From contig NEWP02000001.1 in assembly GCA_002869895.2 (NCBI GenBank), forward strand, positions 1 through 53,691: DNA of 53,691 nt, read 5' to 3'. The notes beneath the pieces were generated by a model. It was not told the DNA's origin. It did no database searches and was given only the letters and a program-made list of their open reading frames with translations. Within the stretch, counting starts at the first letter, position 1; every line of letters starts with the position of its first letter. Shown here in pieces: positions 30,697 to 40,954 of the stretch. This DNA is from Nitrospira sp. CG24E. GTDB lineage: Bacteria > Nitrospirota > Nitrospiria > Nitrospirales > Nitrospiraceae. The position numbers were made by a program, and so were the translations under genes.

Positions 30697-31269
30697 GTGT
30701 GGCAACGCTGGGTACGGGGAGGATTGTTAGCGGTCAGTGTCATGTTGGCCTGTTTCCTCGCATATTTGCTTGTGATCAATTCGGCAACGGCTCCCACCCA
30801 GACTTCGGCGATGCCCGGATCTATGGACAAAGCCGATGCGAAGGTCTCCCAGTTTGCGTTCACCCACACGAAGGGTAATACGATTCAGTGGCAAGTGCAG
30901 GCGCAAGAGGCTCGGGTCTTTGAACGAGACAAGTAGGCGATGCTTCAGATTGTCGCGGTCACACTATTCGGTCAGCAGGGAAAGGAATTGACGGTGACCG
31001 GAGACGAAGGAACATTGAATACAGAGACAAAAAACTTTGTGCTCGCGAACCGATCAGAGCCACTCGTCATCCGCACCGAGAGCGGGTACGTGATCTATAC
31101 GAACCATCTCGCGTGGACCGACCAGACAAGAGAGATTCGCACGGAAGATCCTGTCCGGATCGTGGGACATGGACTAGAGGTGACGGGGCGGGGATTGTTG
31201 GGACATTTGGACCGTGAAGAATTTGAAGTGCTTGAGGATGTACATGTGGATTTGGCTCCTGCTCCTTAA
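30697..31269 (+). pseudogene. lptC: LPS-export protein LptC interrupted by an in-frame TAG
   Basis: LptC is the bitopic inner-membrane protein that passes LPS from LptBFG to LptA. Codons 1-79 from GTG 30697 encode a transmembrane start (GGLLAVSVMLACFLAYLLVI) and the first strands up to WQVQAQEARVFERDK. TAG follows at 30934-30936. The same frame then continues without a gap (AMLQIVAVTLFGQQGKELTV) to 31269, with the typical DEGTLNT, YTNHLAWTD and VRIVGHGLEVTGRG segments. Read through, it would be about 190 residues, the normal LptC length. CAG-to-TAG is the simplest explanation. It is either a recent nonsense mutation or a base error, because the rest of the frame is well preserved. It overlaps lptA. 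Confidence 0.8.
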
Positions 31270-35885: not shown

Positions 35886-36147
35886 TAGCCTGTGCATAAA
35901 GCCAGGTTCCAGTGTAGGCGTGCCTCGTTAATGCTTGTCGGATGCGATTCAGATCCAAGCGGCTCCTCAGCTACATGAAGGAAATGGTGAGTCGAAAGCA
36001 GGGCATTAGGAGAATAGAGAGAGTCGCAAGACACGTCGCTATTACGAACGCTGAATTATCTGGGGGCATGGTCATGATGGACAGTCTGCGTGAAATTTGT
36101 ATTAAGGCTTGTGCTGCGCGGATAGTCAGGTACAGTCAGGGGCACGT
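35886..36147 (+). other. Long leader upstream of pilM, no supported gene
   Basis: This is part of the 378-bp gap between rapZ and pilM (35770-36147). After the promoter at 35858-35885 it holds a possible leader of about 250 nt. An open frame of 70 codons (35942-36154) is basic and Met-rich, overlaps the pilM start, and has no convincing ribosome-binding site or recognisable family. I see no classical riboswitch or terminator. A regulatory leader or small RNA is possible but unproven. Confidence 0.35.
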
Positions 36148-37257
36148 ATGCTGAGCTCATTCAAGGGTCTTGCTGAAGCTGACTTGTTTTCGATGTTTAC
36201 CCCGAAGCGACAGCTCGTGGGGCTGGACATCGGGTCGAGCGGTATCAAACTCGTTCAGTTGAAGGAAAGCCGTGGGCGATACATTCTCCAGAAGTTTGGT
36301 TTCAAACCACTCGAGCCGGAGGTCATCGTCGACGGTACGGTGATGGATGAGGGGCGAGTCGTGTCGGCGATTAAGGAGTTGTTTGAGGAAACGAAGATTA
36401 AAGTAAGACAAGTTGCGGTATCGATTTCCGGCCATGCGGTCATCATTAAGAAGATCAGTCTGCCACCGATGCCCGATGAGGAGTTGGAGGGGCAGGTACG
36501 GCTTGCCGCGGAGCAGTATATCCCCTTCGATATCAACGAAGTGAACATCGACTTCAGTGTGCTGCCCTCTTCTGAGACTGCAGTCGATGCTCAGGGAGAG
36601 ATGTCGATCATTCTCGTAGCGGCGAAGAAGGACAAGATCAATGAGCTGACGGAACTTGTCAAGGGAGCAGGGCTGCTTCCGATCGTCATGGATGTCGATG
36701 CCTTTGCGATCGAAAACATGCATGCGATCAATTACCCTGTGTCGAAGGAAGAAACGACCGCGCTTGTCAACATCGGCGCCAGCGTCATGAATATCAATAT
36801 TGTGCGCGATGGCACTTCGCTGTTTACGCGCGATATTCCCATCGGAGGGAATCGTTATACGGAAGCCATTCAGCGAGAAATGGGTATGTCTTACGAAGAG
36901 GCAGAAGAAACGAAAAAAGGTGAGCGTTCTTTGGGCAGCAATCAGGCAGCGGTGGCCACGGTCGTCGACAGCGTCAATGCCGAAGTTGCGTCGGAAATTG
37001 CGCGGACGATCGATTACTTTAAGTCGACCATGTCGGATGTGGATGTTCAGCAGGTTCTCTTGTGCGGAGGAGGTGCCCAGGCCAAGGGCTTGGTCACGCA
37101 GCTGAGCGACCGAATGCAAGCGATGGTCGAGATCGCAAATCCATTCGGTGAAATCGATACCTCAGGGAGCGGTTTTGATCAGACGACCTTGGCCGAATTG
37201 GCTCCGCTGGCAGCCGTGGGGGTGGGCTTGGCCCTCAGATCGGTAGGGGATCGATGA
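36148..37257 (+). CDS. pilM: Type IV pilus assembly protein PilM
   Basis: PilM is an actin-like ATP-binding protein on the cytoplasmic face that binds the N-terminus of PilN. From ATG 36148 (AGGGGCACGT site) it has 369 residues. Actin-fold motifs are LVGLDIGSSGIKLVQLKESR (phosphate 1), TTALVNIGASVMNINIVRDG (phosphate 2) and VLLCGGGAQAKGLVTQLSDR (adenosine). VAVSISGHAVIIKKISLPPM and AAEQYIPFDINEVNIDF are typical of PilM. The frame is open a little upstream, but those codons lack homology. The stop overlaps pilN by 4 bp. Confidence 0.95.
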   Translation: MLSSFKGLAEADLFSMFTPKRQLVGLDIGSSGIKLVQLKESRGRYILQKFGFKPLEPEVIVDGTVMDEGRVVSAIKELFEETKIKVRQVAVSISGHAVIIKKISLPPMPDEELEGQVRLAAEQYIPFDINEVNIDFSVLPSSETAVDAQGEMSIILVAAKKDKINELTELVKGAGLLPIVMDVDAFAIENMHAINYPVSKEETTALVNIGASVMNINIVRDGTSLFTRDIPIGGNRYTEAIQREMGMSYEEAEETKKGERSLGSNQAAVATVVDSVNAEVASEIARTIDYFKSTMSDVDVQQVLLCGGGAQAKGLVTQLSDRMQAMVEIANPFGEIDTSGSGFDQTTLAELAPLAAVGVGLALRSVGDR

Positions 37258-37805
37258 TCCGCATTAATTTATTGCCGGGACCAAAGGGGCACAAGGCAAA
37301 GCCTCAGTACGATGTCAGAGCGCAAGCGCTGTTGGGAGTAGGGCTGTTGCTTATCACTTTGGCCGGGTGTTGGTGGTACTCTGCGTCGCTCGATGAGGAG
37401 ATAAACCTTCAGCAAGCCGAAAAGGTCGACAAAGAAAAACAGGTTGCGCAGCTGAAAGAACAGGTGAAGCAGGTTTCTGATTTCGAAAACCGCAAGAAAG
37501 TGCTCGAAGACAAAAATCGCATCATCGACGAATTGGAAAAATCGCGTGTCGGTCCTGTCAAGGTGCTCGATCATGTCAGCCAAAGTCTGGAGCCGCTGAA
37601 GGTATGGCTGGTGAGGGTTGCGGTCACCGATAAAGATATCGATCTTGAGGGTCGCGCGGCGACCAACGACGATGTGGTGGAATTCGTGAACAACCTGCGC
37701 CGTACCGACTATTTCACGAATATCAACCTTCAAGAGAGCCGAGCGGCGGTAGAGAACCAGATCAATATCTATCAGTTTAAACTCGGGTTCCGTCTCAAAG
37801 GGTAA
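37254..37805 (+). CDS. pilN: Type IV pilus assembly protein PilN
   Basis: PilN is a bitopic inner-membrane protein of the alignment complex. The 183 residues begin with the PilM-binding motif MIRINLLPGPKG, have one membrane segment near residues 27-45 (ALLGVGLLLITLAGCWWYSA), a coiled coil (KEKQVAQLKEQVKQVSDFEN and on) and a periplasmic ferredoxin-like domain (VRVAVTDKDIDLEGRAATND). ATG 37254 overlaps the pilM stop (ATGA). pilO follows after 5 bp. Confidence 0.94.
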   Translation: MIRINLLPGPKGHKAKPQYDVRAQALLGVGLLLITLAGCWWYSASLDEEINLQQAEKVDKEKQVAQLKEQVKQVSDFENRKKVLEDKNRIIDELEKSRVGPVKVLDHVSQSLEPLKVWLVRVAVTDKDIDLEGRAATNDDVVEFVNNLRRTDYFTNINLQESRAAVENQINIYQFKLGFRLKG

Positions 37806-37810
37806 GAATC

Positions 37811-38437
37811 ATGAAGCTTCCTACTATCAATCTTGACCTCTTGCGGTCAGTCCCATTGGTTCAGAAGGTAGGGCTTCTTCTGATGGTTTTGGCGGGGATT
37901 GTCGTGGGTTTCTACTATTTTGTCGCGGAGCCGAAATCTGTGGAGATTGCAGGGCTTCAGGGGGAAATCGGCGCGTTAGACACCCAGATTCAAACGTTGA
38001 CCATTAAAGTTAAGCACCTTGACGAACTGATTGCCGCTAGTAAGCAACTGGAGATTGAGCTCGCGAAAAAGAAAGAGCGGTTGCCGCCTGAAGAGGAGGC
38101 TGTGATGTTGCTCAAGCAGGTGTCGGATTTGGGGATTCGCCTTGGGCTCGACATTAAACTGTGGAAACCCAGCGCCAAGAGCGAGGATCCATCGAAACTA
38201 TTTGTGAAGATGCCGGTGAACGTGGAGGTCTCCGGCGGCTACCATACCGCAGCTTTGTTTTTCGATCGAATCAATTCGTTGCCTCGAATTGTGACTGTCT
38301 CCGGCCTCAAGATGGGAGCTCCGAAGGTCGAGAAGGGGCGGTTCGTCACACAGACCGTGTTTGATCTTGTTGCCTATGCGGCACCGGAAGAAGTCAAGAT
38401 GGCTGCGGCGGTTTCGGCGGCTCCTCAGAAGAAGTAG
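37811..38437 (+). CDS. pilO: Type IV pilus assembly protein PilO
   Basis: PilO pairs with PilN to form the periplasmic stator. The 208 residues have a short cytoplasmic start, one membrane helix (VGLLLMVLAGIVVGFYYFVA, about 18-37), a coiled coil to about residue 95 and a periplasmic domain with PPEEEAVMLLKQVSDLGIRL, NVEVSGGYHTAALFFDRINS and LPRIVTVSGLKMG, typical of PilO. ATG 37811 follows the pilN stop by 5 bp. pilP starts 34 bp later. Confidence 0.94.
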   Translation: MKLPTINLDLLRSVPLVQKVGLLLMVLAGIVVGFYYFVAEPKSVEIAGLQGEIGALDTQIQTLTIKVKHLDELIAASKQLEIELAKKKERLPPEEEAVMLLKQVSDLGIRLGLDIKLWKPSAKSEDPSKLFVKMPVNVEVSGGYHTAALFFDRINSLPRIVTVSGLKMGAPKVEKGRFVTQTVFDLVAYAAPEEVKMAAAVSAAPQKK

Positions 38438-38471: not shown

Positions 38472-39008
38472 ATGAAAGTCATCTGTGAAAACTGGCGGTT
38501 GGCTATGAAGACCACAAGAATAACTCTGGTTGGATGCGCTTGCCTCCTTGTCTCAGCCGGCCTGAGCTCTGCGGAGATAGGTCAAACGCCGGCTACGGCA
38601 GCCGGCGATCAGATTGCTCAACCGGTTGTATCCAATCCAACATTGGAGCCAATGACCGCACGTTCCTATGATCCTTCCGGGAGGCGTGACCCGTTCGTGC
38701 CGGTGTTACAACAATTGGGGATCGGGGCGATCGACCCCTCGTTGCCCCCACTCCAGCGTGTCGGTCTCACGGAAATGAACCTGATCGCTGTCGTATGGGG
38801 AGCCTACGGCAATACAGCTATGGTTCAGACGCCAGATGGGAATGGATATTCGGTGCGCCGAGGAACGAGGATCGGCCCCAATAATGGCGTGGTGAGTGCT
38901 GTGAGCGAAAAAGGAATTGTAGTGCAAGAAAGATTTACAGATGTGTATGGGAATAAACAGGAGCGGGAGTATGTCAAGCTCCTCCACCCGAAAGAGGGCG
39001 CAGAATGA
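38472..39008 (+). CDS. pilP: Type IV pilus assembly protein PilP
   Basis: PilP links the PilNO stator to the PilQ secretin in the periplasm. The 178 residues have a hydrophobic export signal (RITLVGCACLLVSAGLSSA). The LVGC could serve as a lipobox, as in lipoprotein PilP, but the hydrophobic run continues past it, so cleavage after LSSA is also possible. The family core reads YDPSGRRDPFVPVLQQL, LTEMNLIAVVWGAYGNTAMV, GYSVRRGTRIGPNNGVVSAV and VQERFTDVYGNKQEREYVKL. An ATG at 38505 is an alternative start. It overlaps pilQ by 4 bp. Confidence 0.9.
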   Translation: MKVICENWRLAMKTTRITLVGCACLLVSAGLSSAEIGQTPATAAGDQIAQPVVSNPTLEPMTARSYDPSGRRDPFVPVLQQLGIGAIDPSLPPLQRVGLTEMNLIAVVWGAYGNTAMVQTPDGNGYSVRRGTRIGPNNGVVSAVSEKGIVVQERFTDVYGNKQEREYVKLLHPKEGAE

Positions 39009-39463
39009 CACCTAAGCTGACCATGACAACCACAGCATTTGTTCGCGTGCTCTCGGCGGTGGGAGCGCTGAGCGTCCCGATGGCCGTACCGGCAATAGGA
39101 GCATCGCTCGATGTTTCTGCCGGCGATTCAAGTATGCCCTCTATCATTGAGGAGGGGTTGGCGTCGATCCTGACCCGCATCGATGTTCAGCGCGGCACGG
39201 ACGACATTCGGGTTGTCATCACGGGAGATGGCAAGCTGGCTCATCATGAAGTGACGCGTCTTGATGAGCATCGTCTGATGATCGACATTCCAGACGTTGC
39301 GTCCGCCATACGCAAGCCGGTCATTTCTGTGAATCACCAGATCTTGAAGCAAGTGCGTCTGGGATATCATACCGATAGAGTGCGGGTAGTATTGGATCTT
39401 GCCGGTACGGCTGATTACTCGGTTGAGCCGCGAGGGACGAATCTTATTGTGACGCTTCGGTAA
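39005..39463 (+). CDS. pilQ: PilQ N-terminal part: signal peptide and AMIN domain, ended by in-frame TAA
   Basis: The 152-residue product has a signal peptide (TAFVRVLSAVGALSVPMAV, likely cut near AIGA) and one AMIN domain: ILTRIDVQRGTDDIRVVITG, HRLMIDIPDVASAIRKPVIS, HQILKQVRLGYHTDRVRVVL and YSVEPRGTNLIVTLR. AMIN domains bind peptidoglycan at the start of PilQ secretins. TAA 39461-39463 ends it, yet the same frame stays open into the secretin ORF (next entry), with GAGTDVGESTDSHHGGVPKT between. The pair is most simply one PilQ gene of about 650 codons cut by a nonsense codon. ATG 39005 overlaps the pilP stop. Confidence 0.85.
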   Translation: MTPKLTMTTTAFVRVLSAVGALSVPMAVPAIGASLDVSAGDSSMPSIIEEGLASILTRIDVQRGTDDIRVVITGDGKLAHHEVTRLDEHRLMIDIPDVASAIRKPVISVNHQILKQVRLGYHTDRVRVVLDLAGTADYSVEPRGTNLIVTLR

Positions 39464-39511
39464 GGAGCCGGTACGGATGTCGGTGAAAGTACGGATTCTC
39501 ACCATGGTGGT

Positions 39512-40954
39512 GTGCCCAAAACCATCGAGTCTATGAGTCCTGTCATGTCGAACGTCCAGACGACTTCCGCCTCCCGGATGTCTCAGCGGGCAATGCCCAC
39601 GGTTCGGCGCGCTTCAACGAAATTTCAAGTGCAACTTGCGCAGATGACATCCGGAGCAGATACCGCCGAGGTAAGCACACCGAAGGACGATGTGGTTGTC
39701 GGGGAAACGCGCTATGTCGGTCGGCGCATTTCACTGGATTTCCAGCAGGCAGACATCAGCAATGTGTTGCGCCTCATTGCCGAGGTGAGTGGCTTTAACA
39801 TGGTCGTCGGTGAAGGGGTCAAGAGTAAGGTCACGATGAAGCTCGTCAGCGTGCCCTGGGATCAAGCACTGGATATGATCTTAAAGATGAATGGATTGGG
39901 CAAGATTACCCAGAGCAATATCCTGTGGATCGATACGCTGTCGAATATTGCAAAACAGCAGAATGAAGAGGCGCAGGCGAGGGATGCCAAGACAAAAGCA
40001 GAACCGCTGGTGGATCGGGTGTTCTATATTAGAAACCTGCAAGCAACAGAACTCATGACCTCTCTTCGGCAGTATTTGAGCCCGAGAGGGCTGATGCAGA
40101 TGAGTCAGGGATCCAATGCCTTAGTCGTCCGCGACACCGAAAGCCAGATGGGGGTGCTTAAACAGCTTGTCGATGGACTCGATCTCGAAGTGCCCCAAGT
40201 CCAAATCGAAGCTAGGATCGTGCAGGCCGATACGACCTATTCCCGTTCACTGGGAGTTCAGTGGGGTATCCAGAATCTAAACGCAAACCTCGGGAATGGT
40301 GGGGTCGCGAACTTCAGGACGGGTAATGCCGGAGGCTTTAACGGTCAGAGCTCAGGCTTTCTAGTCAATCTTCCCGCCACAGTCGGTGGATTGGTGACGA
40401 CCCCTACCGTCGGGTTTACGGTTGGGAAGGCAGATGGAGCGTTATTGGATATGCGGTTGTCAGCAGGTGAGTTGCTCGGTCTCAGTAAAGTTATCGCCTC
40501 GCCGAAAGTCACAACTCTGGACAAGCGGGAGGCCAAGATCTCACAGGGTGAATCGATTCCGTTCCAGACGACCTCCCTCCAGGGAACTCAGACAACATTT
40601 GTGGATGCGAACTTGGAACTGAATGTGACTCCCCAGATTACCTCGCGTGATCCGAAGGAAGCCGGGAAGCTGATTATGATGAAGGTTCGGGCCACCAGAA
40701 ATGCCGTCGGCGCACGAAGCAATCCGGCCGGCCCAAGTATCGACCGGCGCGAAGCCAATACCCAGGTGAATATCCGCGATGGCGAAACGATGGTGATCGG
40801 CGGAGTTTTCATCGATGCGCAGAATAACAACGTGATCGGTATTCCCTATCTCTCCCGTGTGCCTGTTTTAGGATGGCTCTTCAAGCAGAAGAGCGAGACC
40901 GTCTCAAAACAGGAACTGCTCATTTTCTTGACCCCCAGCATCGTGAAGAGCTAG
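39512..40954 (+). CDS. pilQ: PilQ secretin part (downstream of the in-frame TAA)
   Basis: This 480-residue frame carries the outer-membrane ring of the pilus: the STN/N0 domain (RRISLDFQQADISNVLRLIA, GFNMVVGEGVKSKVTMKLVS), an N1 domain (VFYIRNLQATELMTSLRQYL, then MSQGSNALVVRDTESQMGVL) and the secretin core (VQIEARIVQADTTYSRSLGV, VIASPKVTTLDKREAKISQG, VNIRDGETMVIGGVFIDAQN, PVLGWLFKQKSETVSKQELL, IFLTPSIV). It opens at GTG 39512 with no signal peptide. Alone it could not be exported by Sec, which supports the view that it belongs to the frame starting at 39005. Confidence 0.9.
   Translation: MPKTIESMSPVMSNVQTTSASRMSQRAMPTVRRASTKFQVQLAQMTSGADTAEVSTPKDDVVVGETRYVGRRISLDFQQADISNVLRLIAEVSGFNMVVGEGVKSKVTMKLVSVPWDQALDMILKMNGLGKITQSNILWIDTLSNIAKQQNEEAQARDAKTKAEPLVDRVFYIRNLQATELMTSLRQYLSPRGLMQMSQGSNALVVRDTESQMGVLKQLVDGLDLEVPQVQIEARIVQADTTYSRSLGVQWGIQNLNANLGNGGVANFRTGNAGGFNGQSSGFLVNLPATVGGLVTTPTVGFTVGKADGALLDMRLSAGELLGLSKVIASPKVTTLDKREAKISQGESIPFQTTSLQGTQTTFVDANLELNVTPQITSRDPKEAGKLIMMKVRATRNAVGARSNPAGPSIDRREANTQVNIRDGETMVIGGVFIDAQNNNVIGIPYLSRVPVLGWLFKQKSETVSKQELLIFLTPSIVKS

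Follow-up and report, generated by a model that had tools for sequence, protein, structure and literature searches.

A private in-frame stop codon divides the pilus secretin gene pilQ in a draft genome of Nitrospira

The gene pilQ, the final gene of a pilMNOPQ cluster, is interrupted at codon 153 by an in-frame TAA in the draft genome of Nitrospira sp. CG24E. Our best reading, to which we assign a probability of about 0.6, is that pilQ is a one-piece gene for which the assembly shows either an erroneous consensus base or a minor variant present in the population. The divided gene is unlikely to represent a new design; most likely, either the sequence is in error or the mutation is very recent. 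The window analyzed here is a stretch of 53,691 nucleotides at the beginning of contig NEWP02000001.1; the assembly to which it belongs is designated G000, and the nearest relative found is designated G023.

Layout of the interrupted gene

Profile searches identified PilM, PilN, PilO and PilP directly upstream of pilQ and on the same strand. The relevant features of the window are as follows:

36109 to 37257, plus strand: pilM (profile matches)
37254 to 37805, plus strand: pilN (profile match)
37811 to 38437, plus strand: pilO (profile match)
38472 to 39008, plus strand: pilP (profile match)
39005 to 39460, plus strand: 5' part of pilQ, 152 codons, with a hydrophobic, signal-like N-terminus (hydropathy) and an AMIN domain (PF11741, residues 59-151)
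39461 to 39463, plus strand: private in-frame TAA, pilQ codon 153, in a variable linker 3' of AMIN
39464 to 40954, plus strand: 3' part of pilQ, with linker, N0/STN, Secretin_N and Secretin (TIGR02515, 389.7 bits)
39477 to 39536, plus strand: out-of-frame 19-codon ORF behind AAGGAG, its TGA overlapping the in-frame pilQ ATG at 39533

The ORF at 39005-39463 (152 aa) and the longest started ORF of the 3' part, 39512-40954 (480 aa), share one common frame. As a preliminary description of this DNA had proposed, the TAA separates an AMIN ORF from a secretin ORF, which is borne out by both the ORF listing and the domain matches, and the 16 codons that lie between the TAA and the next possible start, identified as the GTG at 39512, are all open. 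The linker peptide 3' of the TAA is GAGTDVGESTDSHH. The AMIN match (PF11741) is confined to the first part of the gene, and the matches to N0/STN, Secretin_N and Secretin fall on the second, which scores 389.7 bits against the PilQ profile TIGR02515 (cut-off 284.35) and 143.7 bits against the Secretin profile PF00263 (cut-off 27.5), the N0/STN and Secretin_N (N1) matches to PF07660, PF21305 and PF03958 each exceeding their own cut-off.

As assembled, the frame of PilQ is not continuous, and the export signal and the secretin domain do not reside on one polypeptide, the hydrophobic stretch preceding the TAA. No comparable stretch was detected over 110 residues 3' of the TAA, as judged by hydropathy only, which agrees with the earlier statement that the secretin half has no signal peptide. 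In the PilQ of G023, a matching hydrophobic stretch, judged by eye, is in frame with the secretin. Wider pilus decay was discarded as an explanation, since it has left no trace: pilM through pilP are open in the window, and the six T2SSE-type ATPase matches in the genome contain no stops. The two further secretins of the genome (contig C6, 532 aa; contig C73, 727 aa) do not reach the PilQ cut-off and, accordingly, are no evident replacements for PilQ.

pilQ in relatives

The nearest named record, JABFSG010000060.1 ("Nitrospiraceae bacterium isolate WB-IL-04"), is taken as contig C24 of G023. The pilQ frame of G023 is open over its whole 665 aa, codon 153 being GAA, and its product is 98.6% identical to the window PilQ; relative to this sequence, a single substitution suffices to generate the TAA. 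Among 29 aligned relatives, codon 153 is GAA in 14, G023 included, and in the other 15 it is CAT (four), AAA, GGG or GGC (two each), or CAG, GAG, CGC, CCT or CTG (one each); judged from this alignment, it is a variable linker residue. The earlier suggestion that a CAA had been misread as TAA thus assumed the wrong original codon.

With the intact G023 PilQ as the query, 203 of the 269 genomes of the class gave a match, and the window's own row is the only one with a stop inside the matched part among the 150 matches listed (149 genomes), a count that includes partial matches and in which a frameshift would not register as a stop. A split shared with relatives was not found, all 29 aligned relatives having a single frame. 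The window gene is like AMIN-type PilQ (TIGR02515/PF00263/PF11741) in its succession of signal-like N-terminus, AMIN, N0/STN, Secretin_N and Secretin, but its frame is broken by the TAA at codon 153, whereas the other 149 matches listed have no stop inside the matched part.

Two order-level draft relatives, outside the 29 aligned, have frameshifts in pilQ. In G051 (contig C76), the AMIN and secretin parts are in different frames, the frameshift being located in the same linker as the TAA; this linker is intact in the congeners G043 (contig C126), G046 and G053. In G055 (contig C13), the frame changes near residue 345 of the G023 protein, in the secretin part. The two frameshifts are isolated cases, but they mean that broken copies of pilQ occur in other drafts too, and they could be real. 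Five genomes of the genus (G010, G016, G017, G020 and G022) gave no PilQ match at the cut-offs used, although all of them have LptC; the assemblies of four measure 1.7-2.0 Mb, and some are incomplete.

Sequence constraint beyond the stop

Changes in the segment of pilQ 3' of the TAA were polarized using 21 relatives from the genus, which yielded two nonsynonymous and 22 synonymous changes on the window branch (G000), compared to one and 23, respectively, on the G023 branch. Neutrality along the full branch would predict approximately 47-52 nonsynonymous changes (transition weight 8 or 4), and at most approximately 12-13% of the G000 branch can have been unconstrained (one-sided 95% limit). Since pilQ is under full constraint past the TAA, the substitution pattern indicates that the stop, if real at all, is very young.

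Private stops in other conserved genes of the assembly

Three other genes of G000, which we judged to be real genes, contain an interior stop:

30697 to 31269 of the window, plus strand: lptC, with a private TAG at codon 80 (30934-30936); family named on the intact G023 copy
207397 to 208884 of contig C14 (7397 to 8884 of L104): HEAT-repeat gene, codon 346 of which (C14:208432) is a private TAG
2769 to 4028 of L104, minus strand: unnamed gene of 423 aa, whose TGA replaces the TGC of G023 and precedes the end of the match by 55 aligned codons

The lptC TAG is located 8.5 kb upstream of the pilQ stop. At this position, G023 has GAG and 20 other relatives have CAG, CGG, CGC, AAG or AAA. LptC was matched in all 32 genomes of the genus, including the five without a PilQ match, and the stop is present in G000 only; the lptC gene of G020 is divided over two contigs. 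In Escherichia coli, LptC is reported to be essential unless LptF carries a suppressor mutation (PMC4986956), which makes it difficult to believe in a true lptC null, with the proviso that this essentiality is knowledge of E. coli and not of Nitrospira. The HEAT-repeat gene was matched in 29 of the 32 genomes of the genus, and codon 346 encodes Gln in each of the 21 further copies read, namely that of G023 and 20 others, the stop again being restricted to G000. A genus-wide interruption of the HEAT-repeat gene was considered, stops having been counted in most genomes, and was rejected: 18 of 20 copies have a stop at codon 17, which most likely lies upstream of the true start, and two of these 18 also have one at codon 9. 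The G004 copy has no stop, the stop counted in G019 precedes its alignment, which begins at codon 36, and the second TAA counted in G007 is outside the aligned part.

In a paired survey, 343 genes (107,221 codons) of G000 were compared with G023, and 347 genes (107,438 codons) in the reverse direction. Among genes judged real, interior stops were found in four of G000 (pilQ, lptC, the HEAT-repeat gene and the unnamed 423-aa gene), which form two pairs with the stops 8.5 and 5.5 kb apart, and in none of G023. On its own, this difference does not reach significance (two-sided p = 0.125); the survey taken alone is therefore weak, and the weight rests on which genes are hit. The rows flagged as interior numbered ten (nine ORFs) in G000 and three (two ORFs) in G023, the choice of real genes among them being partly a matter of judgement and "edge" rows being uncounted in both directions. 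Three G000 ORFs and one G023 ORF were dropped for showing no third-position bias before the stop, which makes them likely false starts. Two G000 ORFs (107 and 106 aa) were dropped as short; both are biased at the third position, but each is opposite a longer ORF (774 and 188 aa). One G023 ORF of 95 aa with an interior stop was likewise dropped as short, although it shows third-position bias and has no longer ORF over it. The assembly thus has private stops in unrelated conserved genes, as would be expected of consensus errors or minor variants.

A separate observation concerns an aminopeptidase-like gene, so named by eye, at 65704-66852 of contig C22 (5704-6852 of L135), which matches its G023 counterpart up to residue 369. 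The counterpart is 909 aa long, and the remainder was not found in the 80 kb of C22 searched.

Weighing the explanations

Private nonsense codons can arise from consensus errors in draft genomes. Under the reading that we favor, this draft genome of a Nitrospira-like bacterium would hold an ordinary one-piece pilQ, encoding an AMIN-containing secretin of the type IV pilus, whose assembled sequence has a single private nonsense codon, located in the variable linker that joins the AMIN and N0 domains. The T at 39461 would be either an error in the consensus or a minor variant within the sampled population, in which case the living cells would mostly make full-length PilQ. This reading is favored because lptC and the HEAT-repeat gene also carry private stops, and we infer that the cause lies in the consensus rather than in the chromosome. 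The stops resemble those caused by consensus errors in drafts in being scattered substitutions in otherwise conserved genes, one of which is essential in E. coli; on the other side, no excess of missense changes was seen in G000. At columns that are invariant apart from the change itself, pilQ, lptC and the HEAT-repeat gene have 0, 0 and 2 lone missense changes in G000 versus 0, 0 and 3 in G023, a comparison of few codons and low power in which the G000 HEAT stop is counted apart from the two lone missense changes. No clear single-base indel was found in a real gene of G000. Because both the pilQ and the lptC stops have T where G023 has G, G-to-T damage was considered as a shared cause and was rejected, given that 206 gene comparisons (not polarized) revealed no G-to-T excess in G000. 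The lptC TAG may instead derive from CAG, as the first base of codon 80 is C in 18 of 20 outgroups. A literature search on consensus errors in draft genomes returned no matching paper, and searches on Nitrospira PilQ and on pilQ stops returned no title dealing with this case.

The main rival, which we regard as possible although not probable, is a real and very recent loss of function that would leave the sequenced lineage with a truncated PilQ and no functional pilus secretin, perhaps selected by a pilus-dependent phage or by loss of need. One substitution explains the TAA, the constraint pattern is compatible with a young null, and the other stops could partly be real pseudogenes. There is also a precedent in Pseudomonas aeruginosa, for which a report on phage selection (PMC13170266) describes the pilQ nonsense mutant Q428*, where, as in the window, a single substitution makes a stop in a pilus secretin gene. 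That mutant, however, was isolated and sequenced, whereas the window stop is located earlier in the gene and is accompanied by stops in unrelated conserved genes of the assembly. A recent null is also disfavored by the like kind of the private stops in lptC and the HEAT-repeat gene, lptC being present in every genome of the genus searched. The pilus genes show no wider decay, which argues in the same direction, although a very young null would look identical.

The preliminary description had offered four options, of which a misread base and an inactivated secretin remain, whereas a gene split with a new export route and readthrough of the stop are not supported. A functional split, with an exported AMIN protein and a separately started secretin, produced, for example, by reinitiation via the 19-codon ORF, is unlikely, indeed highly improbable in our estimate. 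The TAA does sit at a domain border, and the placement of AAGGAG before the ATG at 39477, together with the overlap between the TGA of the small ORF and the ATG at 39533, makes that ORF a possible reinitiation route, judging by its sequence. Pilus secretins with and without AMIN domains have been described and, in Myxococcus, AMIN domains are reported to serve the polar recruitment of PilQ (PMC10653833), so that a secretin devoid of AMIN is conceivable, with export still required. However, hydropathy reveals no export signal of its own after the TAA, and the sequence between 39468 and 39540 does not differ from that of the intact G023 gene, which implies that the small ORF is not adapted to a split. 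The 29 aligned relatives have a single open frame, and an alignment that might have uncovered a separate second gene with its own signal instead recovered one gene in every case; the linker frameshift of G051 is a single instance, the linker being open in its three congeners.

Decoding of the pilQ TAA and of the lptC and HEAT TAG codons as an amino acid at some rate is likewise unlikely, and we consider it quite improbable; that these stops are all real and decoded via an unrecognized readthrough route, such that envelope proteins are made through leaky stops, we consider very improbable. Constraint persists past the stops in pilQ, lptC and the HEAT-repeat gene, and relatives vary in the residue at the pilQ and lptC sites, with Gln and Glu both occurring there. 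Beyond this constraint, nothing speaks for readthrough. In 356 ortholog pairs, 337 of which end within three residues of each other, the terminators are TAA in 110, TAG in 118 and TGA in 128 cases in G000, compared to 108, 117 and 131 in G023; thus, all three codons terminate other genes normally, and TAA and TAG are neither lost nor rare in this role (110 + 118 in 356 genes). Moreover, one of the four stops is a TGA at a Cys codon, outside the reach of an ochre or amber suppressor. No tRNA with the anticodon TTA or CTA was found in the assembly using patterns for canonical tRNAs that recover 34 of 34 known distinct tRNAs. The single match of the ochre pattern is tRNA-Lys(ttt), and, of the six matches of the amber pattern, five fall out of register on tRNAs whose anticodons are different, while ARAGORN does not recognize the sixth as a tRNA. 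The census of 34 matches is incomplete, as ARAGORN found a tRNA-Pro(ggg) outside it, and the assembly itself may lack tRNAs. An initial suppressor-tRNA pattern was abandoned: it produced four matches, none of them a tRNA by ARAGORN, and its form recovered 4 of 40 tRNA entries.

Implications

Among the readings considered, only the decoding of stops would be surprising, if true. If the pilQ stop is a genuine null, one lineage would have lost its pilus secretin very recently. If it is an error, the case cautions against inferring the loss or splitting of genes from a single draft genome, which here carries approximately four private stops per 343 genes compared.
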